IMG/VR virus record: IMGVR_UViG_3300005613_000009
Coordinates: 55,982 to 119,981 of that record
DNA from: a virus
Strand: one strand, 5' to 3'
DNA: 64,000 nucleotides
Shown here piece by piece: positions 16,019 through 59,475 of the stretch (positions are counted from its first letter, which is position 1; each line of letters opens with the position of its first letter). Under the pieces are notes generated by a model that saw only the letters and a program-made list of their open reading frames with translations, was not told where the DNA came from and did not search any database. Position numbers and translations under genes: made by a program.

Positions 16019-16525
16019 TCAGAACAGCCCCCGGCAGGGAAGCCCCCGGCAGGGCCATACCCCGTATCGCTTCGCCGTCTCTTTCGCCACTAATGCACTC
16101 GACCCAAAAAATTGCGGCTGCGTCGGATCAAATGGCAACATCTGCATCTTCATCTTCTGTGCGCCATCGCTGCCACGCAACTTCTCGATAAGAATGCCAC
16201 CCGCTGCAGGCGGTAGCCACCAGCCACGCCTGAATACGCTGTTTTGGCCATCTGTTCCACGTGGAACCCAGGCGGGTCGTTTGGTATGGTACTCAAACCC
16301 CGCGGCCTGTAGCTGCCTCCTGGTGATTATGTGGTTGTCTACCTGTCTTTGGTGGCGGATACCGTCCAACCGCTTGACTTCCGACTCGTGGATAGCCGGT
16401 GCCCTGCTGAAATGCTCGACTTCGATCTGCTCCGCCTTGAGAATCGCGTGGATCCTTAGTGGTTGTACGCCGTAGCGCCTCGACAACTCTTCGATCGTGT
16501 AATACTCCCCTAATTTCATCGGCAT
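16019..16525 (-). CDS. MerR-like helix-turn-helix protein
   Basis: The start is set at ATG 16525 (MPMKLGEYYTIEELSRRYGV), six nt after AAGGAGG. Residues 8-55 form a MerR/excisionase-type winged helix (YTIEELSRRYGVQPLRIHAI, then SEVKRLDG). The remainder is basic and Trp/Pro-rich. It is clearly richer in GC than its neighbours, and its end carries a short repeat (CRGLPCRGLF), which suggests a separate origin. A DNA-binding regulator is likely; the target is unknown. Confidence 0.65.
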   Translation of the reverse strand: MPMKLGEYYTIEELSRRYGVQPLRIHAILKAEQIEVEHFSRAPAIHESEVKRLDGIRHQRQVDNHIITRRQLQAAGFEYHTKRPAWVPRGTDGQNSVFRRGWWLPPAAGGILIEKLRGSDGAQKMKMQMLPFDPTQPQFFGSSALVAKETAKRYGVWPCRGLPCRGLF

Positions 16526-16595
16526 AGACATCCTCCTTCTTCGATATAAGTGTGATAGAACTGTTTTTCTTATTAGGAGATTTTAATAGAAAATT

Positions 16596-18469: not shown

Positions 18470-18484
18470 GATAATCCCCCATTC

Positions 18485-18550
18485 TCAATTAGACTCAATT
18501 CAGCTTAATTAGACTCAATTCAGCTTAATTAGACTCAATTAAGCTTACTT
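18485..18550. repeat. Three 20-bp tandem repeats upstream of the DUF4326 gene
   Basis: The unit AGACTCAATTCAGCTTAATT starts at 18491 and 18511, with a third, slightly changed copy at 18531 and a partial copy at 18485. The array ends 16 nt before the start codon side of the DUF4326 gene (18469). A regular two-turn spacing (20 bp) suits cooperative binding of a regulator. Confidence 0.85.
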
Positions 18551-18552
18551 TT

Positions 18553-19424
18553 AATAATATAGATCAATCCTTCCCCATCTGGATCAATCTTTTGGCTTTT
18601 TGTCGTGTTTTCTCCAGTCTTTTAGGCGTGTTAAGATTCCGAATGTCTCTGACCGGGTTTCTTTGCATTGCGCTCAGTCTTGAAAAATGTCGATCTTTTC
18701 AAGCGTCTGCCAGGGGGGCACTGTCGATCTTTAACGGGTCTTGAAGACTCTCAAAAACTGTGGTCGTCCTACCTCAAAGAACTACTTCGATTTATCCCAT
18801 CTGGCCTCATGCCGTCAAGGTCCCAGGCTTGCATCATGTCAGCCTGGGCGCTTCGTGCCATACTCACTATGATATGTTGCATATTTGGTGCCACAATAAT
18901 CAAGCCCATTTGGTATCAATCCAGCACAATTAAGCGTATTTACATGAAAGAGGTGGTGTGTATTTTTTGCAAGGGTGTGGCTTTTTCGATACGCTGTTTT
19001 ATTGTGCAATATCAATCGCTTACGGTGCTGTGGCGATAAAGCCACAATGTGGGATAGTCAGTTTTCAGCTGTCTTTTTTTTGACTTTTTTTTAACTGGAA
19101 ATTCCTTCGCTGCGCCCTTTGCAGCGCCCTCGCCTTGCAAAGCGGGCGAAATGGCAACGCCTGAAATTGATCTTAGTATTTCATTCTCCCCTGGCGTAAA
19201 TAACAAGGCTGAGGGTAAAACGAAACAAACGGACTGAAATAATGACAGAGGGGATAGGCAGACACGAGCTAAGACAAGGCAGTCGAAAATGAGAAAAAAA
19301 TCGTCGTCTGTCTTTGAAAACAGAGATTGTTCCGGCTCTGCGCTAGCGTAACGCAGAGCCTAAATAAGAAAACCCCGCTAAGCGTTTGTCTGCCTAACAG
19401 GGTCTGGGGGATTACTTTTTTATT
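18553..19424. other. Region of about 870 nt without a credible gene
   Basis: Open frames exist on both strands but lack ribosome sites and normal composition. The base composition is higher in GC than the surroundings. A perfect hairpin GGCTCTGCG-N9-CGCAGAGCC lies at 19332-19358, without a T-run. The stretch 19376-19400 on the plus strand echoes the GGCAGACA sequence at 19258-19264. It may hold a structured RNA or the remains of an inserted element; I cannot tell which. Confidence 0.5.
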
Positions 19425-19508
19425 AAAAAAAAGCGCAAGAACTCCAGCAGCTCTACTCTGCGTCATAACCCCAGTTAGAGTTCCAGGGTTATCAAGGAGT
19501 TCCTGCGC
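19425..19508 (-). terminator. Long terminator hairpin after the 62-aa gene
   Basis: GCGCAAGAACTCC (19433-19445) pairs with GGAGTTCCTGCGC (19496-19508) with one bulge. A second hairpin TAACCC/GGGTTA sits inside the loop. Eight T follow on the minus strand. It ends six nt from the stop codon at 19515. Confidence 0.8.
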
Positions 19509-19514
19509 GAAAGA

Positions 19515-19703
19515 TTATGCCTCGCCAGCCAACACATCCGCTACTTCACAGATTATGTCGGCCACTCTCCCGTTGCAGGGGAAATCCTTCCCAGCTATCT
19601 GCAACGGGAATTTCTTTTGGTCCCAAGTCTGAGGACCGAATTCAACCGGCCCTCCAGTTTCCAAGAGAAGCTCTATCGCTTCCCTAAACTTTTCTTTATT
19701 CAT
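19515..19703 (-). CDS. Small hypothetical protein (62 aa), cassette gene
   Basis: Starts MNKEKFREAIELLLETGGPV behind GAGGGGGAATTGAG. An amphipathic helix is followed by a strand-rich part and a helical tail ending VADVLAGEA. Not recognised. It is a complete single-gene unit: T-rich element at 19743-19770, gene, terminator. Confidence 0.65.
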   Translation of the reverse strand: MNKEKFREAIELLLETGGPVEFGPQTWDQKKFPLQIAGKDFPCNGRVADIICEVADVLAGEA

Positions 19704-19742
19704 CTCAATTCCCCCTCGTGTTAAGAGTTAATGTTTTATTTT

Positions 19743-19770
19743 CACAAAAAAACAAATAAAGAAAACAAAA
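19743..19770 (-). promoter_or_regulatory. T-rich upstream element, copy 6
   Basis: Minus-strand CTTTATTTGTTTTTTTGTGA, 40 nt before the 62-aa gene. Downstream reads ATTAACTCTTAAC, a TTAA-rich stretch also seen in copies 8, 10 and 11. Confidence 0.5.
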
Positions 19771-19802
19771 AGCCCGGTTCACGCTGCCAAGTTTTCCCTG
19801 GC

Positions 19803-19850
19803 AAAAAAAAAGACCACCTGCCATAAGGTTCTAAACAGGCAGATGGTCTT
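19803..19850 (-). terminator. Rho-independent terminator
   Basis: AAGACCACCTGCC (19810-19822) pairs with GGCAGATGGTCTT (19838-19850), then a T-run on the minus strand. It closes the unit at 19851-20276, which has no strong protein-coding gene. Confidence 0.85.
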
Positions 19851-20276
19851 AAAATTTCCGGGCTCTGTACCCCTCTAATCGGGAGACGCTGTCCACACAC
19901 CCGGCGATGTGGGAGCCATGCTCGAACCGGTTACCCTACATCCGGAAGGTATTCCATTCCCATACAGGTTATTCGAGCTTTCCCTGTATAGTCCCGTGGA
20001 AGGATGTACTGGCAGGTCCACGGATTTTCGATGGGTGATTTCTCGGTAACGGGGCCGCCATCGACCGGATATCCTCCCGTCTTGCTACCAGTTGCGATTT
20101 TTCACGCAACTCCCGACTTTTCTTTCGACGCCGGGCATCCCCGATTAATCGCTGGGTTGCGCATGAACAGGTACTGCGGGGCCTTTCCCTGTTCCCCTTG
20201 ATCTCCAGCTGCCACTGGAGAGATCTTTGAGAGACGATCTTTTCATCGCCCCTCAAATCTTATATACTATTTATTT
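19851..20276 (-). ncRNA. Possible structured RNA unit (GC-rich, 426 nt)
   Basis: This stretch is flanked by a T-rich element on its upstream side (20277-20306) and a strong terminator on its downstream side, so it should be transcribed leftward. It is far more GC-rich than the cassettes around it and has many short self-complementary segments. A 33-codon frame (20246-20145) follows GAGGGG and could be a peptide; a 95-codon frame exists only with a TTG start and no ribosome site. Either a structured RNA or a small-peptide gene with a long 3-prime region fits. No known RNA family is recognised. Confidence 0.35.
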
Positions 20277-20306
20277 CACAAAAAAACAAATAAAAAAATA
20301 AAAAAA
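20277..20306 (-). promoter_or_regulatory. T-rich upstream element, copy 7
   Basis: Minus-strand TTTTTTATTTGTTTTTTTGTG, directly abutting the terminator hairpin of the preceding cassette, so the T-run after that hairpin is shared with this element. Confidence 0.5.
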
Positions 20307-20338
20307 GCCCGGTGAACGTGTGCCGGGTTCACCGGGCC
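20300..20338 (-). terminator. Rho-independent terminator of the 57-aa gene
   Basis: A perfect 11-bp stem GCCCGGTGAAC/GTTCACCGGGC (20307-20317 and 20327-20337) followed by a T-run on the minus strand, eight nt past the stop codon. Confidence 0.9.
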
Positions 20339-20345
20339 TAGTTAA

Positions 20346-20519
20346 CTAAAATGGAATTTTATCTTCGAACATTGATGTTTCGACAACTGCATTGTCAAGA
20401 AACTGAACAATGCAATTATCTAAATTCAATCCGACAAGCTCCAGTTCTTCAAGCTCGTCGGCATAGAATATATCCGCATTTCCTATTGAGTCGATGACTA
20501 TAATCTGTTTATCAACCAT
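20346..20519 (-). CDS. Small acidic protein with SSB-like C-terminal tip (57 aa)
   Basis: Starts MVDKQIIVIDSIGNADIFYA behind GAGGGGGATGAA. It is clearly related to the product at 21238-21438 (shared VDS-G-ADxFY-ELE-LEL core). Both end in an acidic stretch and Ile-Pro-Phe (here FEDKIPF), the same tip as the SSB at 21937-22374 (DDDIPF). In SSB this tip docks replication and repair proteins, so these peptides could bind the same partners (inference). It lies in a complete cassette with its own upstream element and terminator. Confidence 0.7.
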   Translation of the reverse strand: MVDKQIIVIDSIGNADIFYADELEELELVGLNLDNCIVQFLDNAVVETSMFEDKIPF

Positions 20520-20556
20520 TTCATCCCCCTCATGTTGAAAGTTAATGTTTTGATTT

Positions 20557-20583
20557 CGCTAATAAACAAATAAAGAAAAAAAA
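20557..20583 (-). promoter_or_regulatory. T-rich upstream element, copy 8
   Basis: Minus-strand TTTCTTTATTTGTTTATTAG, 38 nt before the 57-aa gene; downstream reads AAAACATTAACTTTCAACAT, close to the sequence after copy 6. Confidence 0.5.
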
Positions 20584-20614
20584 GCCCGGTGAACGTGTGC
20601 CGTATTCACCGGGC
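20575..20614 (-). terminator. Rho-independent terminator
   Basis: GCCCGGTGAA (20584-20593) pairs with TTCACCGGGC (20605-20614), followed by T on the minus strand. The sequence is nearly the same as the terminator at 20300-20338, so these cassettes share terminators as well as upstream elements. Confidence 0.85.
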
Positions 20615-20749
20615 CTGGGGGGAAGATTGATAGATAAAACTCATAAGATACATTTTCCTGATTCGATATGCAGGAAGAGAAATTCTTGCAAATGGCCAAT
20701 GAAAATCATGACTTTTCATTTTCTCGGCCTTTTCCCTCGAAAAACGCAT
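20606..20749 (-). CDS. Possible small basic protein (47 aa)
   Basis: ATG at 20749 lies 12 nt after GGAGGGG; the product starts MRFSREKAEKMKSHDFHWPF and is basic. A seven-codon frame (MELHPEG) with its own GAGGGGG starts at 20783 and ends just upstream, so it could be a leader peptide. The stop codon lies inside the terminator stem, which weakens the case. A non-coding RNA is the alternative. Confidence 0.3.
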   Translation of the reverse strand: MRFSREKAEKMKSHDFHWPFARISLPAYRIRKMYLMSFIYQSSPQAR

Positions 20750-20829
20750 CTTGTGGGCTTTACCCCTCCGGATGCAATTCCATCACCCCCTCTCTTAGTT
20801 TAAGGTTATTAAATTATTTTGTTTAATTT

Positions 20830-20856
20830 CACTAAAAAACAAATAAAAAAATAAAA
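20830..20856 (-). promoter_or_regulatory. T-rich upstream element, copy 9
   Basis: Minus-strand TTTTTTATTTGTTTTTTAGTG, 47 nt before the leader frame at 20783 and 81 nt before the 47-aa frame. Confidence 0.5.
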
Positions 20857-20901
20857 GCCTGGTTTACGCTGCCGGGTTTCCCCTGGCGAAAATGCAACCT
20901 A

Positions 20902-21204
20902 TTATCGTTTCATATCTTCACAAGTGAAGACATAAGTTTCAAACAAAGCCCTGTCGTTGAGGGTTTCAAGCCACTGCCTTATTTGTGGCAGTCTTGGCTT
21001 TATAAATTTGATACGATCTTCTTGCCTAAGATAAAATTCCTCGTCAGCATAACGGATTAAGGCAACAAGTTCTTCTGCGGCATGAGAAAGGGTAGGAGCT
21101 CCCTCATTCTCACTTGTTAGACCATGATAATAGAGACCAATCGTGTCTAACAAAAACCCTTTTTCAAGTATTTCAATCAATAAGTTTATCACCAGTTTTC
21201 TCAT
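20902..21204 (-). CDS. Hypothetical helical protein (100 aa)
   Basis: Starts MRKLVINLLIEILEKGFLLD behind GGGGGTGAAAC. It is mostly helical, with an LSHAAEELVALIRYADEEF segment. No signal peptide is likely because the N-terminus is broken by charged residues. Not recognised. It is 33 nt downstream of the acidic SSB-tip protein and probably co-transcribed with it. Confidence 0.65.
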   Translation of the reverse strand: MRKLVINLLIEILEKGFLLDTIGLYYHGLTSENEGAPTLSHAAEELVALIRYADEEFYLRQEDRIKFIKPRLPQIRQWLETLNDRALFETYVFTCEDMKR

Positions 21205-21237
21205 GTTTCACCCCCTTATATATTAAACGTAACCGGC

Positions 21238-21438
21238 TTAGAACGGAATGATATCTTGATGAAACGGGCTATTGGATCCTATTTCATACTCAGAAGAAAT
21301 ACGTTGGAACTCTTCTTCGTCATAGACATCTATGACGTCATCGTTAAACATGTCGAAAAGTTCCAGATCCTTCAACTCTTCCTCGTAAAAGACATCAGCG
21401 CTCCCAACCGAATCCACGATCATCAACCTATCTTCCAT
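21238..21438 (-). CDS. Small acidic protein with SSB-like C-terminal tip (66 aa)
   Basis: Starts MEDRLMIVDSVGSADVFYEE. Very acidic, ending QDIIPF. Paralogue of the 57-aa product at 20346-20519; the central ELKDLELF matches ELEELELV there. The C-terminal Pro-Phe preceded by acidic residues resembles the protein-docking tip of SSB encoded 0.5 kb upstream. T-rich element at 21475-21505. A regulatory or decoy role at the replisome is inference. Confidence 0.7.
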   Translation of the reverse strand: MEDRLMIVDSVGSADVFYEEELKDLELFDMFNDDVIDVYDEEEFQRISSEYEIGSNSPFHQDIIPF

Positions 21439-21474
21439 GATACCCCCCTGGTTTAAATGTTAATATTTTAAATT

Positions 21475-21505
21475 CACTTTAGAACAAATTAAAAACAAAA
21501 AAAAA
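21475..21505 (-). promoter_or_regulatory. T-rich upstream element, copy 10
   Basis: A divergent copy (minus strand TTTTTAATTTGTTCTAAAGTG) 37 nt upstream of the 66-aa gene; it keeps ATTTGTT and GTGAA. Downstream ATATTAACATTTAAAC again resembles copies 6 and 8. Confidence 0.45.
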
Positions 21506-21532
21506 CCCGGTGAGCATGTCTGCTACCGGGTT
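21497..21532 (-). terminator. Rho-independent terminator
   Basis: AACCCGGT (21504-21511) pairs with ACCGGGTT (21525-21532), with a T-run on the minus strand. It closes the transcript of the 73-aa and 29-aa genes. Confidence 0.8.
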
Positions 21533-21565
21533 AATTCAGTGATCATGATAAAACACCTTTTCTTC

Positions 21566-21787
21566 TTACTTTTTGGCATTGGCCTTCGCAAGCCTTAGCT
21601 TAACGGCGTCCGGTGTAGGAAGTTGTTCCTTGATCAAGGTCCTCAACTCCATGTCCGTCTCTTGGAGGACGTTTTTGAACTCTTCACCTTCCTCAAGCTG
21701 GCCAGTGACGCCATAACTAACGGACCATGAATTGAAATTCTGGCCCAATTTTTTCGAAACCAATACTGAAATTGTGTCTGTTTTCAT
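21566..21787 (-). CDS. Hypothetical protein (73 aa)
   Basis: Starts MKTDTISVLVSKKLGQNFNS. The first half is strand-rich (SWSVSYGVTGQLEEGE), the second helical. Similar small proteins occur in phage and plasmid ssDNA-binding loci, but I cannot name the family. Its ribosome site GGAGGTATTTAG lies inside the upstream 29-aa gene, and the two genes touch (TAG-ATG). Confidence 0.7.
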   Translation of the reverse strand: MKTDTISVLVSKKLGQNFNSWSVSYGVTGQLEEGEEFKNVLQETDMELRTLIKEQLPTPDAVKLRLAKANAKK

Positions 21788-21877
21788 CTAAATACCTCCA
21801 AAAATCATGAGAAAAACGGCAATCGCCGCCGATGTTAATATTATAAAATCCTGGCATTCCATAAAAAACTTTTCCAT
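21788..21877 (-). CDS. Single-pass membrane mini-protein (29 aa)
   Basis: ATG at 21877 follows GGAGGTATTGCT. The product MEKFFMECQDFIILTSAAIA continues into a hydrophobic segment of about 18 residues ending MIFGGI. Its stop codon abuts the start of the 73-aa gene, whose ribosome site it contains, which argues that it is translated. Function unknown. Confidence 0.6.
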   Translation of the reverse strand: MEKFFMECQDFIILTSAAIAVFLMIFGGI

Positions 21878-21892
21878 AGCAATACCTCCATT

Positions 21893-21925
21893 AAAAAAAA
21901 GGCAAGCACCAAACCGGCACTTGCC
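21893..21925 (-). terminator. Rho-independent terminator after ssb
   Basis: GGCAAG (21901-21906) pairs with CTTGCC (21920-21925), followed by eight T on the minus strand. The ribosome site of the 29-aa gene begins right after the T-run, so partial read-through probably feeds that gene. Confidence 0.8.
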
Positions 21926-21936
21926 TTAATTCCCGG

Positions 21937-27390: not shown

Positions 27391-27419
27391 CTTTTACTCC
27401 TTTTTTTATTTTTTGATAA

Positions 27420-27546
27420 CCTACATAAAATGTAGGAATAGAAAAAATTGTAATTCATCAACCTACATAAAATGTAGGTCGGTGAAAATCAACCTACATA
27501 AAATGTAGGTCGGTGAAAATCAACCTACATAAAATGTAGGTCGGTG
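27420..27546. repeat. Four palindromic repeats, three in 31-bp tandem
   Basis: CCTACAT-AAA-ATGTAGG occurs at 27420, 27462, 27493 and 27524; the last three are followed by TCGGTG, and the repeat period is 31 bp. Each unit is a 7-bp inverted repeat. There are no unique spacers, so it is not a CRISPR array. It begins 30 nt upstream of the zinc-ribbon gene start and could be a set of operators or RNA hairpins in its leader. Confidence 0.85.
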
Positions 27547-27596
27547 GAAAATTGTAATTGAATGGCTATTCATTACTGTGATTTCTATTTCCCATT

Positions 27597-28017: not shown

Positions 28018-28758
28018 TTAATAATCGAGCTTCCATCCTTTTTCCTCACAAATAGCTTTGATCAAATCACGGTCTGTCATCTGTGGATCTCCAGGTTTCC
28101 AAAGAAATGCTTTTTCAGAAAAATACCAAAATCGTTCCTCGCCTCGATATGGGCAATTATTTCCTTCAGCAGCCCATTCATCGAACCGTTCGGGATGCGG
28201 ATGTGCGTAAGCGTCTCGTCGCATAAGCTCAAGAGTAAGAAAGTCCGATAACGATCCAAGATTTATAAAGGATAGCGACCTGATTGATGGAAAACCATAA
28301 AACTCGATTTTAGCTCCAGAAAGGTAGGCTGTTCTCAAATCTAAGCCCATAATGCCAATGCCTCTAAGATCAGCACCTCTAAAATTGGTATATTCAAATG
28401 TACAATTTCGTATCTTCGCATATCTTAGATCAGAGTCTGCAAAAGAAGAACTATCAAAATTAGAGTTTTCAATAGAAGCTGCTCTAAGCCGAGTTCTATC
28501 AAAAAAAGAGTTCTCAGCATCAACATTTGACAAATTAGAATTTTTTAAATTAGAGTCTCTGAAATCTGCATATTTAAGGTCAGAACCTCCAAAGTCTGCG
28601 CTTTCAAAGTTAGATCTGTCAAAGTTACTAACAGATAAATCAATACCTCTGAGATCAGCATCCAAGAGAGATTTTTTATTTTTTATAGCCAAGTCTCTCA
28701 TTAGCTCGTCCCCCTCAACGATTACCTCACCGTTATAGCGATTCATTATTTTTGCCAT
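28018..28758 (-). CDS. Pentapeptide repeat protein with conserved C-terminal domain
   Basis: 246 residues. From about residue 35 to 150, A/S-D/N-L/F-x-x repeats (LDADLRGIDLSVSNFDRSNF and so on) form a right-handed beta helix. The last 80 residues (LTLELMRRDAYAHPHPERFD, PGDPQMTDRDLIKAICEEKG) are not pentapeptide repeats and are shared with the product at 32406-33419. Some pentapeptide proteins mimic DNA and inhibit gyrase; there is no direct evidence of that here. GATAGGAGGTAGCC precedes the ATG. Confidence 0.85.
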   Translation of the reverse strand: MAKIMNRYNGEVIVEGDELMRDLAIKNKKSLLDADLRGIDLSVSNFDRSNFESADFGGSDLKYADFRDSNLKNSNLSNVDAENSFFDRTRLRAASIENSNFDSSSFADSDLRYAKIRNCTFEYTNFRGADLRGIGIMGLDLRTAYLSGAKIEFYGFPSIRSLSFINLGSLSDFLTLELMRRDAYAHPHPERFDEWAAEGNNCPYRGEERFWYFSEKAFLWKPGDPQMTDRDLIKAICEEKGWKLDY

Positions 28759-29985: not shown

Positions 29986-30615
29986 TTATTTTTTCTCCTG
30001 CGGAGGGCTCTCTTGCGGGGGGCTCTCCTGCGGAGTGCTGGGTTGAAAAGTGTTGGGTTGCGGGGAACCGGGTTGCGGGGAACCGGGTTGCGGGGAACCG
30101 GGTTGCGGGGAACCGGGTTGTGAAGAAGTCAAATGTGTTGGGCTGGGTTGTGAAGAAGTCAACTGTGTTGGGCTGGGCTGCTGGGAAAACCACCGACATT
30201 TTTGGCGAATGCATTCAGGGTCGTTCATCTCCTGGTGCCACTGGCACACCTCATCAAGAACGGTACGATTTATCCCCATGTAGGGGCAGGTGTGTCGCGA
30301 AGCAACCTTCATTTTTACGCCGTATGTTGGCAATGGATCCGAAGGCGACGGATTTTCATGCGGCGAGGGGATATGTTTAGGGGGTTTTGCAAAATCCAAA
30401 ACCGATGAAATAGGTCCTTTTTCCATTTTTTGCTGATTCTGTCCAAACTCATTAGCGCCACGAGGATGGCCGCTTCCATTTATCCCTGTACTTTGTGCCT
30501 TATTTTTGTTTTCTTTCGACTCCTGACGACGTCGTTGCTCGGACGACGCAGATTTCGAACAAAGATCGGCCTCTGAATGCAATTTTTTATATTTTTCGAG
30601 TGATGTTAGTTCCAT
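29986..30615 (-). CDS. Protein with Cys/His motif and QPGSP repeats (209 aa)
   Basis: The start is placed at ATG 30615 (MELTSLEKYKKLHSEADLCS), just after the stop of the RHH gene. The middle has CPYMGINRTVLDEVCQWHQE followed by CIRQKC, a possible zinc site. The C-terminal 60 residues are low-complexity, with four QPGSP units encoded by an exact 15-bp DNA repeat (30058-30117) and further QPS/PQESP units, probably a flexible tail. Its neighbour is the RHH gene beside the putative origin. Confidence 0.55.
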   Translation of the reverse strand: MELTSLEKYKKLHSEADLCSKSASSEQRRRQESKENKNKAQSTGINGSGHPRGANEFGQNQQKMEKGPISSVLDFAKPPKHIPSPHENPSPSDPLPTYGVKMKVASRHTCPYMGINRTVLDEVCQWHQEMNDPECIRQKCRWFSQQPSPTQLTSSQPSPTHLTSSQPGSPQPGSPQPGSPQPGSPQPNTFQPSTPQESPPQESPPQEKK

Positions 30616-30619
30616 TTGA

Positions 30620-31192
30620 CTAAATATCGGCAAAATCCGGATCGTTTTCGACCGAATCCCTTTCAGGAGTGTTAAGCCCATTATCTGCACCCTGTGTGTC
30701 GGAAGTATCATCTGGGAAAAAGCTATCGCCCAACAGTTCCTTGACCTTCAAAAACTCAGTATTTGTCATTGCACGTTCCCAGTCCTCCCATTCAGCCTGT
30801 GTCATCTGAATTTTTTCAAGTTGATCATCTGTAAGTTTTTTTACTTTTCTTTTTGCGGTTGTCGCATCCGGTGTTGGTTTCAGGACCGGTGTTGATTCCG
30901 AGATTTGTTCTTTGTCCATTTCTACTAAGAGTTTTACGGCCTCAACTCTCAGAGATTCCTGTTTGTCCAGAATTACGCCCATCTTTGAAGCAAGAGGCGT
31001 TTTCATTTTTAACTGCTTCGGCTGTTGATTTGTTATTCCTTGTTCGATGCACTGGATCATAAAAGCATTAGCACTCATTTTCGACAGCTTTGCATATTTT
31101 GCAATACTTTCAAAGAGAGATTGCGACATTCGAACGGTTGTCCTTTTGTTCAAACTTTCATTCTCATTTTCCTCGTTTTTTGTATCAGTCAT
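30620..31192 (-). CDS. Ribbon-helix-helix DNA-binding protein
   Basis: The start is set at ATG 31192 (MTDTKNEENENESLNKRT), nine nt after AAGGAG. Residues about 18-55 (TTVRMSQSLFESIAKYAKLS then SANAFMIQCIEQGI) are a ribbon-helix-helix fold of the Arc/CopG/ParG type: a DNA-contacting strand followed by two helices. A helical region and an acidic tail follow, longer than CopG, more like partition or plasmid-copy regulators. The gene starts 35 nt from the iteron block at 31226-32150, the obvious candidate target. Confidence 0.75.
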   Translation of the reverse strand: MTDTKNEENENESLNKRTTVRMSQSLFESIAKYAKLSKMSANAFMIQCIEQGITNQQPKQLKMKTPLASKMGVILDKQESLRVEAVKLLVEMDKEQISESTPVLKPTPDATTAKRKVKKLTDDQLEKIQMTQAEWEDWERAMTNTEFLKVKELLGDSFFPDDTSDTQGADNGLNTPERDSVENDPDFADI

Positions 31193-31225: not shown

Positions 31226-32150
31226 AAATTGTTTATGACACCACAGCCCAATTTTTATGGCGAAAATAGGGCCTCACCGGACACGCAAAGTACTTTTTCC
31301 TAATAATTACAACTACTTATTTTTTTATTAAATAAATTATTTTTATTATTAAATTAGTTTAAATTAATATATACTATACTATATATATCTATATATCTTG
31401 TCCGGTATAGCTATATTTATATACATATATATATACGGGATATGAATGAAAAGTAGTGACACCAGACACCACATTTTCAATCTATCATTTATCCATAAAA
31501 TGACACCACTTTTAGTCTTGACACCAAAGATGACACCACAATTCGTATAATTATACATATATAGGTTTATCCCCAAAAGGCGCTATACCGGACATGGCCA
31601 AATAATGAGTGTTTTTGCCTTTTCGATTCAATGATTTCAATTACTTAACCCCTTGAAACACTAGTTTTGCGCCTTAATTTTAACCAAATTAACATTGTCC
31701 AAACTCATCCTTCTTAGTCCCTACCGGACATGAAACGGCCTCTCACCGGACATGGAATTTCCACTACCGGACATGGAAATGGCCTACCGGACATGGAAAT
31801 TGTGGTTTTCTGTATTTTTTTCATGCAATCGCTCCAAAGTGTTGTCGTTTTACACGTTTTTTGGTGTCATCGGCATTTTTGACACTTTTATGGTGTCTGG
31901 TGTCATTTTTGCACTTTTACCCATTTTGCTAAAACATGAGGTGACACCACTTTTTAAGATTTTCATAGGTTTCATTTTTTTTTGAGGTGTTGATTCGCAA
32001 AAAAGGTGTCCATATGTCCGATAGCGTGTCCGATGAAACCCCATTTCGTGTCCGGTAGTGAGAGAAATATTTTGGCAATGACACCACTTTTGACACTTTT
32101 TTACGCAGATCATAAGATATGCGGCACTAATTTTGGTCGTAAAAAGCATA
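31226..32150. other. Iteron-rich non-coding block, candidate replication origin or partition site
   Basis: 925 nt without a credible gene. Motif A, ACCGGACATG(G), occurs at about 31276, 31588, 31723, 31745, 31767 and 31785, and inverted at 31400 and 32049. Motif B, TGACACCA, occurs at 31237, 31458, 31501, 31519, 31530, 31941 and 32079, with inverted copies at 31863, 31891 and 31899. An extremely AT-rich tract spans 31310-31435. TTATCCATA (31490) and TTATCCCCA (31568) resemble DnaA boxes. Together these are the usual parts of an iteron-type origin; a centromere bound by the adjacent RHH protein is the alternative. Confidence 0.65.
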
Positions 32151-32151
32151 A

Positions 32152-32400
32152 TTATCCTCTTAACCTCAAACCTAAACCATGCCGGTTACATCGGATAATC
32201 CGCAACCTGATCATAGGCATAATAATTACCAAGTAAAACACTGGTGGGGACATCGGTAACCGGGCCAATTTTGCCAAAAAACGAATTTCTTCCAATCGTT
32301 CTAGCAAAAACTCTCGTTCATAATCGTCTTTTTTATCGATTTTTCTTTGTAAAGGTCTTGGTCCTGCAATATAAATAGTTTCTGGTGTAATAATATTCAT
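32152..32400 (-). CDS. Possible small protein (82 aa)
   Basis: ATG at 32400 lies six nt after the stop of the pentapeptide gene with a weak TTAAG upstream. It starts MNIITPETIYIAGPRPLQRK, acidic and helical at first, then hydrophobic (PPVFYLVIIMPMI) and very basic at the end. It is the last frame before the iteron block. A spurious frame is possible. Confidence 0.35.
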   Translation of the reverse strand: MNIITPETIYIAGPRPLQRKIDKKDDYEREFLLERLEEIRFLAKLARLPMSPPVFYLVIIMPMIRLRIIRCNRHGLGLRLRG

Positions 32401-32405
32401 CTTAA

Positions 32406-33419
32406 TTAATTTTGGACTTTCAAATGTCCATCAATTCCCCATCCCTTTTCTTTGCAAATAGCGATAATTAAATCACGATCCGTCATAGTAGGATTTCCCG
32501 GTTCCCATAATTCTCTAGATTCGCAAAAAGACCAAGCTCTTTCCTCATCTATGTACGGGCAATGTCCACCACCTGCCCATCCGTCAAATCTTTCAGGACA
32601 AGGATGTGAATATGCATCCCGACGCATGAGTTCGAGAGTAAGGCTATCAGATAATTCTTCCAATAGTATTGATGATAATAACCGAATTGTAGGAAATGTA
32701 TGAAATTGGATTCTGGCATTTGTAAGATTTGTTGCCAAAAAATTTGCATATTTAATCTTTGCATTTATAAGATTGGCATTTGTAAAATTGGTATGCATAA
32801 GATTTGCATATGTAAAGTCAGCTTCTTCAAGATTTGCATCTATAAAACTTACAAATGTAAGATTGGCATCTGTAAAATTTGCATCAATAAGAACAGCATT
32901 CCCAAAATTGGAACCAGTAAGATTTGTATATGTGAGATCAGCCCCTCTAAGATTGGTATTTATAAAAATGGCGTTTTCAATAACGGCACCCGTAAGATTG
33001 GCATACGCAAGATTAGCGCCTGTAAGATTGGCGGATATAAGATTTGAACTCCTGAAATCAGCATTTTTAAGGTTTGCACCTATAAAAATGGCATTTGTAA
33101 AATCTACATCCATAAGGTTTGCATGTGCAAAATCCACACTCATAAGAGTTGCATATGCGAGATTGGCCCCTTTAAGGTTTGCATTTGTGAGATTGGCACC
33201 TGTAAGGTTTGCGTTTGTGAGATTGGCATTTGTAAGGTCTGCATCTGTAAGATTGGCATCCGTAAGGTTCGCATCTGTGAAATTGGCATTTCTGAGATCG
33301 GCACATACAAGATTGGTATCTTTGAGATCGATGTGATTTTTCTTATATAATGTCTTTAATAATTTTTTACTATCAATAACAATTTTTTGTGTAAGAGGAT
33401 TCTTTTTTATTTTAGACAT
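32406..33419 (-). CDS. Long pentapeptide repeat protein with conserved C-terminal domain
   Basis: 337 residues. Residues about 35-250 are roughly 40 consecutive pentapeptide units, mostly A-N/D-L-T-x (NLTDANLTDADLTNANLTNA), predicting a long right-handed beta helix. The last 80 residues (LTLELMRRDAYSHPCPERFD, PGNPTMTDRDLIIAICKEKG) are nearly the same as in the shorter protein at 28018-28758, so the two are paralogues that differ mainly in helix length. Function unknown; DNA mimicry is a family possibility. Confidence 0.85.
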   Translation of the reverse strand: MSKIKKNPLTQKIVIDSKKLLKTLYKKNHIDLKDTNLVCADLRNANFTDANLTDANLTDADLTNANLTNANLTGANLTNANLKGANLAYATLMSVDFAHANLMDVDFTNAIFIGANLKNADFRSSNLISANLTGANLAYANLTGAVIENAIFINTNLRGADLTYTNLTGSNFGNAVLIDANFTDANLTFVSFIDANLEEADFTYANLMHTNFTNANLINAKIKYANFLATNLTNARIQFHTFPTIRLLSSILLEELSDSLTLELMRRDAYSHPCPERFDGWAGGGHCPYIDEERAWSFCESRELWEPGNPTMTDRDLIIAICKEKGWGIDGHLKVQN

Positions 33420-33439: not shown

Positions 33440-33652
33440 TTAGAATTTATACACATATAATTTATACACATATTTGGATGGATCGCCGCCGAGTTCTTTA
33501 CATGCGCTAACCAATTCTTCTTTAATTTCTTTTTCTGGTGATCCTATGTATCGTTTTCCATCAATGTAAACAGCATAAGTATCTATTGCAGCCAAAAAGC
33601 CTCGTATAAATTGTGGATCCTGATTCCCGTACATCGATTTTATATATCCCAT
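33440..33652 (-). CDS. Small hypothetical protein (70 aa)
   Basis: Starts MGYIKSMYGNQDPQFIRGFL behind TTTGGAGGTATC. It reads GFLAAIDTYAVYIDGKRYIG then a helix and a Tyr-rich end, resembling the small phage proteins of the LAGLIDADG-like or DUF fold without catalytic residues. Not assigned. Confidence 0.65.
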   Translation of the reverse strand: MGYIKSMYGNQDPQFIRGFLAAIDTYAVYIDGKRYIGSPEKEIKEELVSACKELGGDPSKYVYKLYVYKF

Positions 33653-39937: not shown

Positions 39938-42931
39938 TTATTCTTCTTTGTATAATCGTTCTGATCTTTTTAACTCATGGTCACGATCAAGGATATAATT
40001 AAAAAACGAAATACATTTGACGTATGGTTGATATCCGCGTGAAGACGCAATTAGTTTATTATCAATAAAAAACGACATATCTCTACGTACAGTTCTGCAG
40101 GAACACGATAAATGATCAGCGAATTCTTTCTGGTTAATTCTATGTGAATTACCAGGAACCATATTAGCTACTTCTCGAAGCATATATAAAATACGTTTTT
40201 TAGCGTCTGCAATATCGTTGATTTTCAGATATTCAACAAAACGGGTATAAAGATCTTCTCTTTGGTGTGGGTCAAGGATGTTTCGGTCGGCATATCTTTT
40301 AGAATATTCATCTAATCGACAATTGCCTGCAGAATAAATAGCTTTCAAAAAATTATCCACAATGAAATTAACATGATAATCTTTGACATTAATAGTCTGA
40401 AAATCATCGTCTGATGATAAATCCAAAATCGCAAGGGATGTAGCCATCCTGCAAAGGGTTTTTCTGAAGTCTTGAGGACATACTAGTGGCAGGTCAGTAC
40501 ATTTGCCATATTTTTCTGAAAAGTGAAAAGATGCTTTTCGGATAAGATTTGCAATTTTATTTGATATAATAATACGATCTGCAGGTAGATTCCATGCATA
40601 ATAAATTAAGCGTTGTAAACGTTGTGCCGTAACAAAGATTATTTTATGTGGTTTACTCCATTTATAGATTTCTTGGTTGTTTTCGATATCATACTGTGCA
40701 GCAAAAACAGCAAAGTCAATACGGCGGAGCATCATAGCAGGAAAAATATTTAAGAGGGATTGGCAACCATAACGAAATGAATCCATAGTACGTTGATTGG
40801 CTTGTCGATCATCCATTTTGGGATTGCATAAAAAGAAACACCTTGTCATAGCTTCGAAAGTCCGACTTTGAACTTTTGCTATTCTAATTTCACCAGTGTC
40901 AATAGCATCTGACATAGTTTTTAAATCTTCTTCAGGTAAATCTTGTGCTTCGTCTATAATTAAAGCCTGCCGAGACATTTTAAGGAGGGCACCTGCTTTG
41001 ATCCGCCAACCACGTCTTTCATCCCTATCCATGGCATATGTAATACCGGTTCTGGAGCTGGTCATACCACTGACACGATATCCTATATTTGCATATTTAA
41101 AAATAGAATCGCTCACTGTTGTTTTTCCTGATGCGCTATCACCAATTACAACCGAACTAATCCAACCGCGGATTTTATCGTCACCGGGTAAATTTATCCA
41201 TTGTGGAGACATTAATGTTATCAATACAGCTAAATGTAATTCGTCTCTGTGATAAATCCTTGTAACATTTTCTGACAAATCTTTAATAATATCCATCGGA
41301 TCCATTTTCTGGAGAGATTTAAGATCCTTTTTGGACTCTTCGAGTGAAAATCCCTGCCAATCCTGTTTCTGCTTTTTTATGGTGTCAATCAGCATTGTGG
41401 GTTTTTGATGTTTTGGATGAGTATGGATAAAACCAGTTGCCTGATATTGACCAATAGGTATACGTTTATTGTCGATTACATATACTGCTTTTTCAACTAA
41501 TTCATCGTTCTCATTTGGCATATCTTTTTCAAAAATCTGGTGGGCAAAGATTTCTCTGATTGTGGTTTTATCGGTACTGAATGTTAGATTTGGTCGTTTA
41601 TTACGGTGGCAAATAATATCACAGAACGAATTACGAAGTTTTGAATCACTGGCAGCGATACTCGTCAATTGCATACTTGAACCCTTTGGAATTTTAATAG
41701 GTTCGGTACAAAGCCAATCCCAATCATCACGGCCAGTACATTGACCTTTTTCGAGCAAAGGACAGTAAGAAACGGTTACCTCATTCGGACTGTGATACGC
41801 TTCACTATTTTCGCCATATACAAATATCGGGACCGTAACACGTAATCCAGCATTTTTTCCTTCCTCGATCTGAGTAAAAGATTCAAGAGCCTTTGGTTCC
41901 GGAAAAGATGCATTGTCTTTTTCGCCTTGTTCTAGTTCATATGGTTCGCATAAATCTATTAAGCCGAAAAATGCTTCGGCTGTTCCGTTTGATTTTATAA
42001 ACCAATCAGTAGCATCTTTATTTTCCTTGTCTTCATCTTCGTATAGCCAAAGTATCTTAATCGATAGAATATCGCCAGAAGCTATAGATTTTTTAAACAT
42101 TGGCAAAATAACATTCTCAACGGCGTTGCGGCCTTCTTTATCACAATCGTAAACAATAACCAAATGATGATTATAAAAATAAGGAACCCAATTAGCAAGA
42201 AAGGCGTTGCATCCATTCGTAGGCGATACCGCAACAATGCCGGTTTCTTGGTTCGTTAAAATTGCATCAGATTCACCTTCGTGTATTGTAACGATTGTAC
42301 CTGTAGGTGCCTCTACTAAATTATTGACGCCATAGAGTTGTGCCTCACCATACCCAGGCGTATTGAGCATTTTTGGCTTTTTTTCCCAGCTATAATATCT
42401 GATATTGATAAGTTTATCTTCGGAATCATATACTGGATATGTGATCCGTTTTTGCTTTTTTCGCCAGCCTAGTTTCCATTTTGAAATGGTTTCATCGGTA
42501 AATCCACGTTTATTATGTAGATAATCAATGGCTTCAGATGTCAAATCATTGATATATCCGTTTATAATTTCTTCTGAAATTTCTTGTTTTTTTTGGTTTA
42601 ACGAAACATTGGTTTTATTTGCATAATATTTTAATACCTTGCCAAAATCGCCTTGGTGGCCTGGTAGGAAATCCATGGCAACACTAAATAAGCTAAACGC
42701 TAATTTAGATCCGTTGTTCATGTTAAATACAACTAGGTAGCCACGTGATGAACCGCTGCCGACATTCACACCACCAGAGTGATGTTTTTCCATTTTGTAG
42801 GGATTTAAGCAAGCAATCCAACCTTTGGAATTTATATTGCCTTTAAATTGAACCCCTAATGCTTCATATTCTTCTCTTATATTAAGTCGGGATAAAATCT
42901 CCGCCTTTACTTTGTCTAGTTTGGGCATCAA
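39938..42931 (-). CDS. TOPRIM primase fused to an MCM-like AAA+ helicase
   Basis: 997 residues, the likely replicative primase-helicase. Residues about 215-270 are a TOPRIM domain (HEGESDAIL and VYDCDKEGR). Around residue 600 begins an AAA+ domain: Walker A GDSASGKT, then GMTSSRTGITYAMDRDE, GWRIKAGALL, Walker B LIIDEAQDLPEED near 660, and RCFFLCNP (sensor 1). This order and spacing match the MCM family rather than DnaB or D5. A winged helix (QKEFADHLSCSCRTVRRDMS) ends the protein near 940. The N-terminal 100 residues have no CHC2 zinc finger that I can see. The start overlaps the previous gene by 50 nt. Confidence 0.85.
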   Translation of the reverse strand: MMPKLDKVKAEILSRLNIREEYEALGVQFKGNINSKGWIACLNPYKMEKHHSGGVNVGSGSSRGYLVVFNMNNGSKLAFSLFSVAMDFLPGHQGDFGKVLKYYANKTNVSLNQKKQEISEEIINGYINDLTSEAIDYLHNKRGFTDETISKWKLGWRKKQKRITYPVYDSEDKLINIRYYSWEKKPKMLNTPGYGEAQLYGVNNLVEAPTGTIVTIHEGESDAILTNQETGIVAVSPTNGCNAFLANWVPYFYNHHLVIVYDCDKEGRNAVENVILPMFKKSIASGDILSIKILWLYEDEDKENKDATDWFIKSNGTAEAFFGLIDLCEPYELEQGEKDNASFPEPKALESFTQIEEGKNAGLRVTVPIFVYGENSEAYHSPNEVTVSYCPLLEKGQCTGRDDWDWLCTEPIKIPKGSSMQLTSIAASDSKLRNSFCDIICHRNKRPNLTFSTDKTTIREIFAHQIFEKDMPNENDELVEKAVYVIDNKRIPIGQYQATGFIHTHPKHQKPTMLIDTIKKQKQDWQGFSLEESKKDLKSLQKMDPMDIIKDLSENVTRIYHRDELHLAVLITLMSPQWINLPGDDKIRGWISSVVIGDSASGKTTVSDSIFKYANIGYRVSGMTSSRTGITYAMDRDERRGWRIKAGALLKMSRQALIIDEAQDLPEEDLKTMSDAIDTGEIRIAKVQSRTFEAMTRCFFLCNPKMDDRQANQRTMDSFRYGCQSLLNIFPAMMLRRIDFAVFAAQYDIENNQEIYKWSKPHKIIFVTAQRLQRLIYYAWNLPADRIIISNKIANLIRKASFHFSEKYGKCTDLPLVCPQDFRKTLCRMATSLAILDLSSDDDFQTINVKDYHVNFIVDNFLKAIYSAGNCRLDEYSKRYADRNILDPHQREDLYTRFVEYLKINDIADAKKRILYMLREVANMVPGNSHRINQKEFADHLSCSCRTVRRDMSFFIDNKLIASSRGYQPYVKCISFFNYILDRDHELKRSERLYKEE

Positions 42932-57557: not shown

Positions 57558-57601
57558 TTATTTTCTCCATATTTATCCTCCACGGTGAACAAGTGTTTCC
57601 A

Positions 57602-57747: not shown

Positions 57748-58242
57748 ATGGGAAAACAGAACGATTTCCAACAAGCCTTTGTTGCTGGTGTTAAAAGATT
57801 ATTGTCATCAAAATGGGGATCTCAAACCAGGCTCGCAAAAGATGCCGGCATTAAACCTTCGTATTTATGTGACATCTTAAACAATAGAAAGAAAGGTACA
57901 GAAAAAACCCGCAAGTCAATCGCCAAAGGTCTTGGCAAAACTTATCAGGAAGTATTGAATAATGGTTTTAACTCATTAAGAAATGTAACCCAGCCTTATG
58001 CAGAAGTCTGTAACGGAATTCAGCCTTTTACAGAAGACTATGCCTGTCTTATTTATCAATTTGCTGCCAAAGAAGTAAGCCTCGAAGGTTCCCATTTTTT
58101 TACGCATGATTCATTAAAAAAGATTCGACCGCCAGGTTGGGTTGATTATTTGAACCAGGAAATTTCTGAAGATGCTCTTTATGAAATAGCGAAAAAAGAA
58201 ATGGAACGTATTAGGATAATGATCAAAAAAAAGACAGGATAA
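57748..58242 (+). CDS. HTH repressor (lysogeny-type)
   Basis: 164 residues. Starts MGKQNDFQQAFVAGVKRLLS behind GAAAGGAGACCC. Residues 15-70 (SQTRLAKDAGIKPSYLCDIL then TRKSIAKGLGKTYQEVLNNG) are a Cro/CI-type HTH. The C-terminal part has no LexA-like protease signature, which fits inactivation by the ImmA-like protease encoded next. Probably binds the inverted-repeat operators found at five promoters. Confidence 0.8.
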   Translation: MGKQNDFQQAFVAGVKRLLSSKWGSQTRLAKDAGIKPSYLCDILNNRKKGTEKTRKSIAKGLGKTYQEVLNNGFNSLRNVTQPYAEVCNGIQPFTEDYACLIYQFAAKEVSLEGSHFFTHDSLKKIRPPGWVDYLNQEISEDALYEIAKKEMERIRIMIKKKTG

Positions 58243-58320
58243 TAATAATTTTGTTTTTTTTAGTCTGGGTGCAGAACAATTAAATCGGTTAATCTTATTT
58301 GACCGGAAAGGCGGTAAATA

Positions 58321-59475
58321 GTGCAAACAAACAACTCTGATCCGGGATTATTTCATGTTAATTTTGACCAATACTCATATATGAATTATATAAATGATAA
58401 TTGTTTGAATTATTTGGGTGTAAAAGAAGAAAGCCATTTTAATCGATTTTTTATCGATTATTTCCAAAGATATGCGGATAAATATTATATTCCACAGGAT
58501 GAACAGGAAATAATTGCACAAAAAATAGCCAATTCAAATGTTCCTGATAAACCCTTCTTTATTGCAGATTTTAACATTTTTGTGAATTGTGAGTTGCGTA
58601 GACATCGTTGGGTTGCTGCATTATCTGAAAATTGTTTTAAGTTTCCGAAAAAAAATCTTGAATTTGTTTCATTCGGATGTGATTGTGAACATGATTATAA
58701 CCAGAAATATAGTAATTTTTTGAACTCTTTAAGAACTACTTATCATATATTTACAACAATTAGGTATAAAATACCATGGCTGAAAAAATATATATTGAAT
58801 AAGAAATATGGAACATATGATGTTTTAGAATTAATGAAACGTCTAGATATACTCTGTGTTAAAGATTATACTATTAACTACAGTATGTCATTTATCGACA
58901 AATACCGAACCAATAAAGAACAGAGCATCATTATATATAACCCAAGTCTGCCGAAAATTATTCTGGATAGGATTTTGTTCCATGAGATGGCGCACCATAT
59001 CTTGGGCCATATTAATAAAGAAAATAAAGAACATTGTTTTCCTTTAGGATGGAATTTAACTAATTCATATGTCGAAAAGGAAGCCAATATGTTTGCCGAT
59101 ATGATGTTTTTTAAACCATCGTACTTGATTAATTGTCTTGCAAAAAACAATCTAAATGAAGACTATCTATTGAATGAATTGTTAGATAGAGATCTATTTT
59201 ATTTGTGCAATCTATTTCCAAGGACTACAGGTAAAAAATGTGATAATTTTTTTCTGTCTAATGATATTAGATCATTTTGCAGATTAATGATTAATTCATT
59301 TGTTGAAAGCACCTTAAGCGTGTATTTTCTTTTAGTGAATAATATTTTCAATCTTTTCATGGACAGCCCCAAGAGTATCTTATCGAAATATTATGGAATT
59401 TTATTCAGTACTATTTATAAGCTTAGCAAACTGTATCCAGAAAAATTTGCCTGTTTTTCACCTTTAGTTAGTTAA
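58321..59475 (+). CDS. ImmA/IrrE-like zinc metalloprotease
   Basis: 384 residues with a GTG start behind GGAAAGGCGG. FHEMAHHILGH near residue 220 is the HExxH zinc site, and EKEANMFADMMF about 35 residues later is the second glutamate helix, both diagnostic of the ImmA/IrrE family. In ICEBs1 and many prophages ImmA cleaves the repressor encoded beside it to trigger induction. The N-terminal 200 residues and C-terminal 110 are unusual for the family and make it larger than typical ImmA. Confidence 0.8.
   Translation: MQTNNSDPGLFHVNFDQYSYMNYINDNCLNYLGVKEESHFNRFFIDYFQRYADKYYIPQDEQEIIAQKIANSNVPDKPFFIADFNIFVNCELRRHRWVAALSENCFKFPKKNLEFVSFGCDCEHDYNQKYSNFLNSLRTTYHIFTTIRYKIPWLKKYILNKKYGTYDVLELMKRLDILCVKDYTINYSMSFIDKYRTNKEQSIIIYNPSLPKIILDRILFHEMAHHILGHINKENKEHCFPLGWNLTNSYVEKEANMFADMMFFKPSYLINCLAKNNLNEDYLLNELLDRDLFYLCNLFPRTTGKKCDNFFLSNDIRSFCRLMINSFVESTLSVYFLLVNNIFNLFMDSPKSILSKYYGILFSTIYKLSKLYPEKFACFSPLVS

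Follow-up and report, generated by a model that had tools for sequence, protein, structure and literature searches.

A candidate iteron replication origin in a tailed phage that encodes a TOPRIM-primase/MCM protein

P4 alpha, a Toprim primase-helicase, uses a winged helix to bind the repeats of its origin, after which it unwinds the DNA and primes it (PMC4234260). SaPI Rep and SCCmec Cch2 were found to bind origin iterons through their C-terminal domains, and Cch is MCM-like (PMC7581432). The locus described here likewise carries iterons, in a tailed phage which encodes a TOPRIM-type primase joined to an MCM helicase.

The stretch analyzed (the window, 64,000 nt, to whose positions all coordinates refer) comprises bases 55,982-119,981 of the 119,981-base IMG/VR record IMGVR_UViG_3300005613_000009. 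The record is a linear contig without terminal repeats and may be incomplete. Terminase-, capsid-, portal-, and tail-type proteins, named from their translations, are encoded upstream and mark it as a tailed phage. The block of interest, its sites and the two predicted reader proteins are as follows.

31226..32150, no strand: candidate replication origin; gene-free, repeat-rich, 925 nt, GC 34.8%, flanked by two leftward genes
30620..31192, minus: 190-aa protein with an N-terminal ribbon-helix-helix (RHH)-like domain, strand RTTVR; predicted TGACACCA reader
31236..31243, plus: TGACACCA site, 44 nt upstream of the RHH start codon
31276..31285, plus: ACCGGACACG site, upstream of the RHH gene
31311..31435, no strand: AT tract, 88% AT; candidate duplex-unwinding element
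31397..31406, minus: ACCGGACAAG site (ACCGGACA core at 31399), within the AT tract
31457..31538, plus: TGACACCA cluster at 31457 (with tandem heptad GACACCA at 31465), 31501, 31519, and 31531
31489..31497, plus: DnaA-box-like TTATCCATA, one mismatch, weak
31567..31575, plus: DnaA-box-like TTATCCCCA, one mismatch, weak
31587..31596, plus: single ACCGGACATG site, exact
31721..31800, plus: main iteron array, four head-to-tail YACCGGACATGRAA at 31723, 31745, 31766, and 31786, spacing 22/21/20 bp
31862..31905, minus: TGACACCA cluster on the opposite strand, at 31862 and 31898, with a tandem heptad at 31891
31942..31949, plus: TGACACCA site, exact copy
32007..32056, minus: inverted, partly degenerate ACCGGACA sites (GTGTCC, two TGTCCGAT, TGTCCGGT)
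32079..32086, plus: TGACACCA site, exact copy
39938..42931, minus: 997-aa TOPRIM-type primase/MCM AAA+ helicase with a C-terminal winged helix; predicted ACCGGACATG reader

An earlier note on this DNA had described two repeat families of about eight and about ten copies, each in both orientations, together with two DnaA-box-like sequences, in 925 nt where no gene fits. This description was borne out. The second family, TGACACCA, is present in the block as nine exact copies on both strands, far above chance; the whole window holds 11 copies where 1.57 are expected, a count reached by none of 100 shuffles. Two extra GACACCA units produce tandem heptads (31458/31465 and 31891/31898), and TGACACTT is found at 31880 and 32091. 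The first family comprises eight ACCGGACA sites on both strands, of which five are exact ACCGGACATG copies, all on the plus strand (the single site and the four of the main array), and three carry one mismatch (31276, plus; 31397 and 32047, minus). At no more than one mismatch, ACCGGACATG occurs 10 times in the 64-kb window against 1.87 expected, and 0 of 100 shuffles reach 10. Among the short repeats of the window, TGACACCA and ACCGGACA cluster most strongly (Poisson log10E of about -18.6 and -17.9, respectively), and a GACA core is common to all copies of both families.

Iteron origins are characterized by direct repeats at about helical-repeat spacing and by an adjacent AT-rich region. The four-copy array supplies the former and the tract at 31311-31435 the latter. 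No other 125-nt stretch of the entire record is as AT-rich as this tract, the runner-up reaching 81.6%. The tract had been called AT-only-like; it is real, but it is not AT-only and one ACCGGACA site lies inside it. The two DnaA-box-like sites are weak, since each is one mismatch off and 0.49 such sites are expected per 925 nt.

The longest open reading frame (ORF) inside the block encodes 99 aa (31850-32149, minus), has no usable domain match and contains repeats. A DNA similarity search with the block returned no match in phages, and no known RNA family scored above threshold in it. Next to it, the ORF at 32152-32400 (minus) looks frameshifted, as MNIITPETIYIAGPRP...LEEIR resumes in another frame as FFGKIGPVTDVPTSVLLGNYYAYDQVADYPM, the cause being either a genuine frameshift or an error in a homopolymer. 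Pentapeptide-repeat proteins (28018-28758 and 32406-33419, both minus) lie on either side of the RHH-origin segment and have similar C-termini (RRDAY.HP.PERFD.W ... MTDRDLI.AIC.EKGW).

Further features were observed elsewhere in the window. At 27419-27552 near-identical palindromes ACCTACATAAAATGTAGG(T), three of them in a 31-bp tandem array, are followed by 15-bp TTTCAGTA-type repeats, which makes this a second candidate array for protein binding. At 33444-33473 a 15-nt repeat, AATTTATACACATAT, occurs as two identical copies, both containing the DnaA-box-like TTATACACA. In a region of about 3.4 kb (18470-21936) none of the reading frames stays open for more than 128 codons; its GC content is about 44% against about 35% elsewhere, and it has no Rfam match. 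The proteins encoded at 29986-30711 and 16019-16531 (both minus) end in C-terminal tails that are GC-rich and built on a 15-bp repeat.

Searches of other phages revealed the same repeat cores in and beside replication genes. A scan of viral_contigs for two copies of ACCGGACATG gave seven loci, and in two of these (L005 and L009) the copies lie within a replication gene of the winged-helix type. The palindrome ACCGGACA-NNN-TGTCCGGT was found at 31 loci, in about 10 of which the site follows directly on the winged helix-turn-helix (wHTH) codons of a replication gene. In IMG/VR phages, triple clusters were found at 108 loci for TGACACCA and at least 119 for ACCGGACA, raw counts that mislead, since many of the clusters belong to protein repeats read in frame (pentapeptide, VTPP); these were set aside and out-of-frame clusters alone were used. 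Among the matches listed, 35 of 63 out-of-frame ACCGGACA clusters lie inside an initiator-type wHTH ORF, compared with 3 of 58 in-frame controls (Fisher p = 7e-10, an optimistic value because some loci are near-duplicates). The out-of-frame ACCGGACA clusters listed have a spacing mode of 22-23 bp, with which the array in the window agrees. Several of the 28 negative ACCGGACA clusters proved on inspection to lie in divergent wHTH-like genes (e.g., L261, L187, and L159), while others follow closely on Prim-Pol/AAA_25 or AAA_25 helicase genes or occupy their 3' ends (L167, L193, and L252). A recurring element, ACCGGACAGGACGGACA-CGTCCGC...ACCGGACA, was also seen outside recognized wHTH genes (L155, L165, L174, L190, L199, L207, L234, L238, L246, L254, and L263).

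TGACACCA clusters were found inside HTH_36 or Phage_rep_O genes (L060, L098, L112, and L143) or beside one (L122), downstream of primase-helicase genes (L108 and L134, the latter encoding Toprim, AAA_25, and a C-terminal HTH), and upstream of RHH genes (L081 and L102). In 289 alphaproteobacterial genomes no TGACACCA case and one ACCGGACA case (a satellite) were detected; no phage enrichment is claimed, the IMG/VR base total being unavailable.

A less redundant count was obtained from unique recognition helices (n = 31 for ACCGGACA and n = 9 for TGACACCA). Among the matches listed, the helix R-x-[VIL]-R-R, with K allowed for the first R, is present in 26 of the 31 ACCGGACA initiators and in none of the nine TGACACCA initiators (p = 7e-6). 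Two short iteron cores are thus met repeatedly in phage replication genes that are unrelated, in step with the recognition helix of the initiator, a pattern which would allow origins to be located and initiators to be assigned straight from sequence. A search of the literature library gave no paper describing such a pattern, and the motif search returned unrelated papers only. It is suggested tentatively, and with rather more doubt than confidence, that phage replication initiators have a simple recognition code in common (R-x-[VIL]-R-R for ACCGGACA, other helices for TGACACCA), and that jointly with this the TOPRIM-primase/MCM protein reads ACCGGACATG as its own origin-recognition protein beneath a control layer read by the RHH protein.

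The 997-aa protein matches MCM (PF00493, E 6.2e-18) and primase/helicase PHROGs. Its winged helix spans approximately residues 908-970 and has the recognition helix RTVRR. A wHTH profile seeded with eight domains of ACCGGACA initiators was run over the six frames of the record and matched one place, the C-terminus of this protein, at E 0.0035 (2.4e-4 after iteration, a modest value, with the next match at 0.5); the RR-helix bias of the seed helps this match and hinders the detection of a difference in the TGACACCA group. On these grounds, the ACCGGACATG iterons are probably read by the C-terminal winged helix of the MCM protein. This assignment is a prediction, not proof, because RTVRR is also found in unrelated wHTH regulators. 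About 7.9 kb separate the MCM gene from the block; the comparison phages, by contrast, carry the cluster within the reader's gene or adjacent to it. No close relatives of the protein were found in IMG/VR. Distant relatives occur in 55 phage records, and the three examined (Wollypog, BSP7, and ctIqW946) are MCM-primase phages that differ in the C-terminus and lack an iteron block of this kind; such a block is therefore not general to phage MCM proteins. AF2 single-sequence models of the two predicted readers (pLDDT 39 and 53) were too poor and were left unused.

The RHH-like protein has weak PHROGs matches (phrog_795, E 1.5e-6; Arc-like phrog_582, E 2.2e-5), and tblastn-type searches of viral_contigs, phages, plasmids, and genome_contigs gave no significant relatives. 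Arc-like RHH genes whose promoters carry TGACACCA repeats have the strand RITLR (L081 and L274/L279) or RFTLR (L102), and the L102 protein is unrelated outside the domain. One further RITLR gene (L278) has the promoter variant TGACACTA; it and L274 were found through protein similarity rather than through the motif. Close RHH relatives with the strand HFRLR (L269-L273) have TGTGGCAT repeats at the same position. Set beside TGACACCA in L081, these relatives with their different beta-strand present a natural specificity swap. In L081 (5583-6200) divergent Arc-like RHH genes lie around the array. Aligned by eye, RTTVR of the window protein matches R-x-T-x-R at the alternate residues R, T, and R. 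It is likely from these motifs that the TGACACCA sites are read by the neighboring RHH protein, for which the evidence is moderate: R-x-T-x-R is a common strand in RHH proteins, and TGACACCA serves wHTH initiators as well, so that reading by RHH proteins is not unique.

The same cores in or beside the initiator and primase-helicase genes of other phages, together with the strongest AT tract of the record, argue that the block at 31226-32150 is probably the replication origin of the phage, one of the two candidate roles named in the earlier note. Its naming of the primase-MCM and RHH proteins as likely users is also favored, with the roles split so that ACCGGACATG would fall to the MCM winged helix and TGACACCA to the RHH protein. 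In the mechanism proposed, the C-terminal winged helix of the TOPRIM-primase/MCM protein would bind the ACCGGACATG iterons of the array and the single copies, and this binding would strain the neighboring AT tract until it opens. The MCM ring would then assemble on the opened strands and prime them, as P4 alpha does at its own iterons. The RHH protein, encoded immediately downstream, may bind the TGACACCA sites and repress its own promoter, and from the sites that flank the AT tract it may tune or block initiation. Taken as a whole (origin, both protein-repeat pairings, P4-like opening and loading, and RHH control), this assignment is a proposal for and against which the case is evenly balanced. 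To our knowledge, iteron origins recruiting an MCM-type helicase have only partial parallels, in SCCmec and P4. Should the C-terminus of the MCM protein itself prove to be the reader of the block, this would provide a one-protein model of MCM initiation in a bacterial virus.

GC skew, put forward in the earlier note as a check of the origin, did not point to the block. Over the record, skew is lowest at 57,583, a point at which the genes change orientation, and this minimum is uninformative as origin evidence because skew in this record follows the gene strand. At this minimum, a repressor-like gene (HTH_3, weak) and an IrrE/SprT-like gene (weak Pfam match) lie at 57748-59475 (plus), divergent from the leftward genes.

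It is also conceivable, if unlikely, that the block is an origin whose iterons are read by another initiator, either outside the record or unrecognized, which hands over to a DnaC-like loader and host DnaB while the MCM protein acts at the fork only. Since the phage encodes such a loader (L004:12942-13826, PHROG E 1.6e-59), host DnaB could be the helicase loaded; moreover, ACCGGACA iterons usually accompany a dedicated wHTH initiator gene, and a linear contig without terminal repeats leaves room for one. Against this, the 119,981 bases encode no HTH_36 (PF13730) protein, and no second wHTH match was found in six frames.

An improbable reading is that of a large regulatory region, combining RHH operators with the sites of a second regulator for the leftward genes and having no role in replication. 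TGACACCA arrays do lie in RHH promoters in other phages, and in L081 and L102 no replication gene was seen nearby. The block is, however, too large and complex for the operator of one small gene, and it contains the strongest AT tract of the record. Elsewhere ACCGGACA arrays are a feature of replication genes, and a promoter and terminator scan of the block gave matches no commoner than in shuffles.

The earlier note had also considered a centromere, which in a plasmid-like prophage would be bound by the RHH protein. In ParG/omega systems an RHH gene likewise lies next to an array of repeats, weak PHROG matches are named 'partition protein ATPase', and the repressor-like and IrrE-like genes occur in a record in which no integrase or resolvase was found. 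Partition is nevertheless unsupported and was rejected, because no ParA-type ATPase is encoded in the 119,981 bases of this possibly incomplete record: there is no ParA Walker A motif (KGGxGK) in six frames and no AAA_31 match. As the ACCGGACA arrays would also be left unexplained, this reading is very improbable. Chance or low-complexity drift in an AT-rich, non-coding region is refuted as the source of the repeats by the shuffles, none of which reach the counts, and is made negligible by the sharing of the cores among unrelated phages in a replication context.

With the block read as an origin, its likeness to known systems can be set out. As in P4 alpha, primase, helicase, and wHTH are combined in one protein, here as TOPRIM, AAA+, and a predicted C-terminal winged helix, and the short repeats of P4 ori have their counterpart in an iteron block with an AT tract. 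The phage differs from P4 in the sequence of its iterons and in how far the gene lies from the block; iteron binding is predicted here, and the system is not a P4-type member because its helicase is MCM-type (PF00493), not SF3. The lambda-O/HTH_36 initiators with in-gene iterons (L143 Phage_rep_O, L009, L012, L016, and L060) use the same 8-bp cores, ACCGGACA and TGACACCA, at a spacing of about 22 bp. In the present record, however, both cores occur together, and the absence of an HTH_36/Phage_rep_O gene and the intergenic position of the block exclude a lambda-O-type in-gene origin.

SaPI Rep and SCCmec Cch and Cch2 are initiator helicases with an iteron-reading C-terminus, as predicted here. 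Their iterons lie just downstream of the helicase gene rather than about 7.9 kb away, and the portion of the source concerned describes no TOPRIM fusion, which is present in the phage protein (PMC7581432).

The anatomy of the window is also found in L167 (IMGVR_UViG_3300025736_000349), where TGTCCGGT/TGTCCG repeats and a ATATATCTATATAT tract adjoin in one short intergenic block. Unlike in the window, a gene for a Prim-Pol and RecA-like AAA_25 protein lies directly upstream, with the ACCGGACA cluster immediately 3' of it, and no TGACACCA cluster or RHH gene was seen. The Arc-like RHH autorepressors (L081, L102, and L274) resemble the window in having TGACACCA upstream of the RHH gene and an R-x-T-x-R strand. 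Whereas theirs are compact promoter operators, the sites described here are spread over 850 bp and interleaved with ACCGGACATG iterons.
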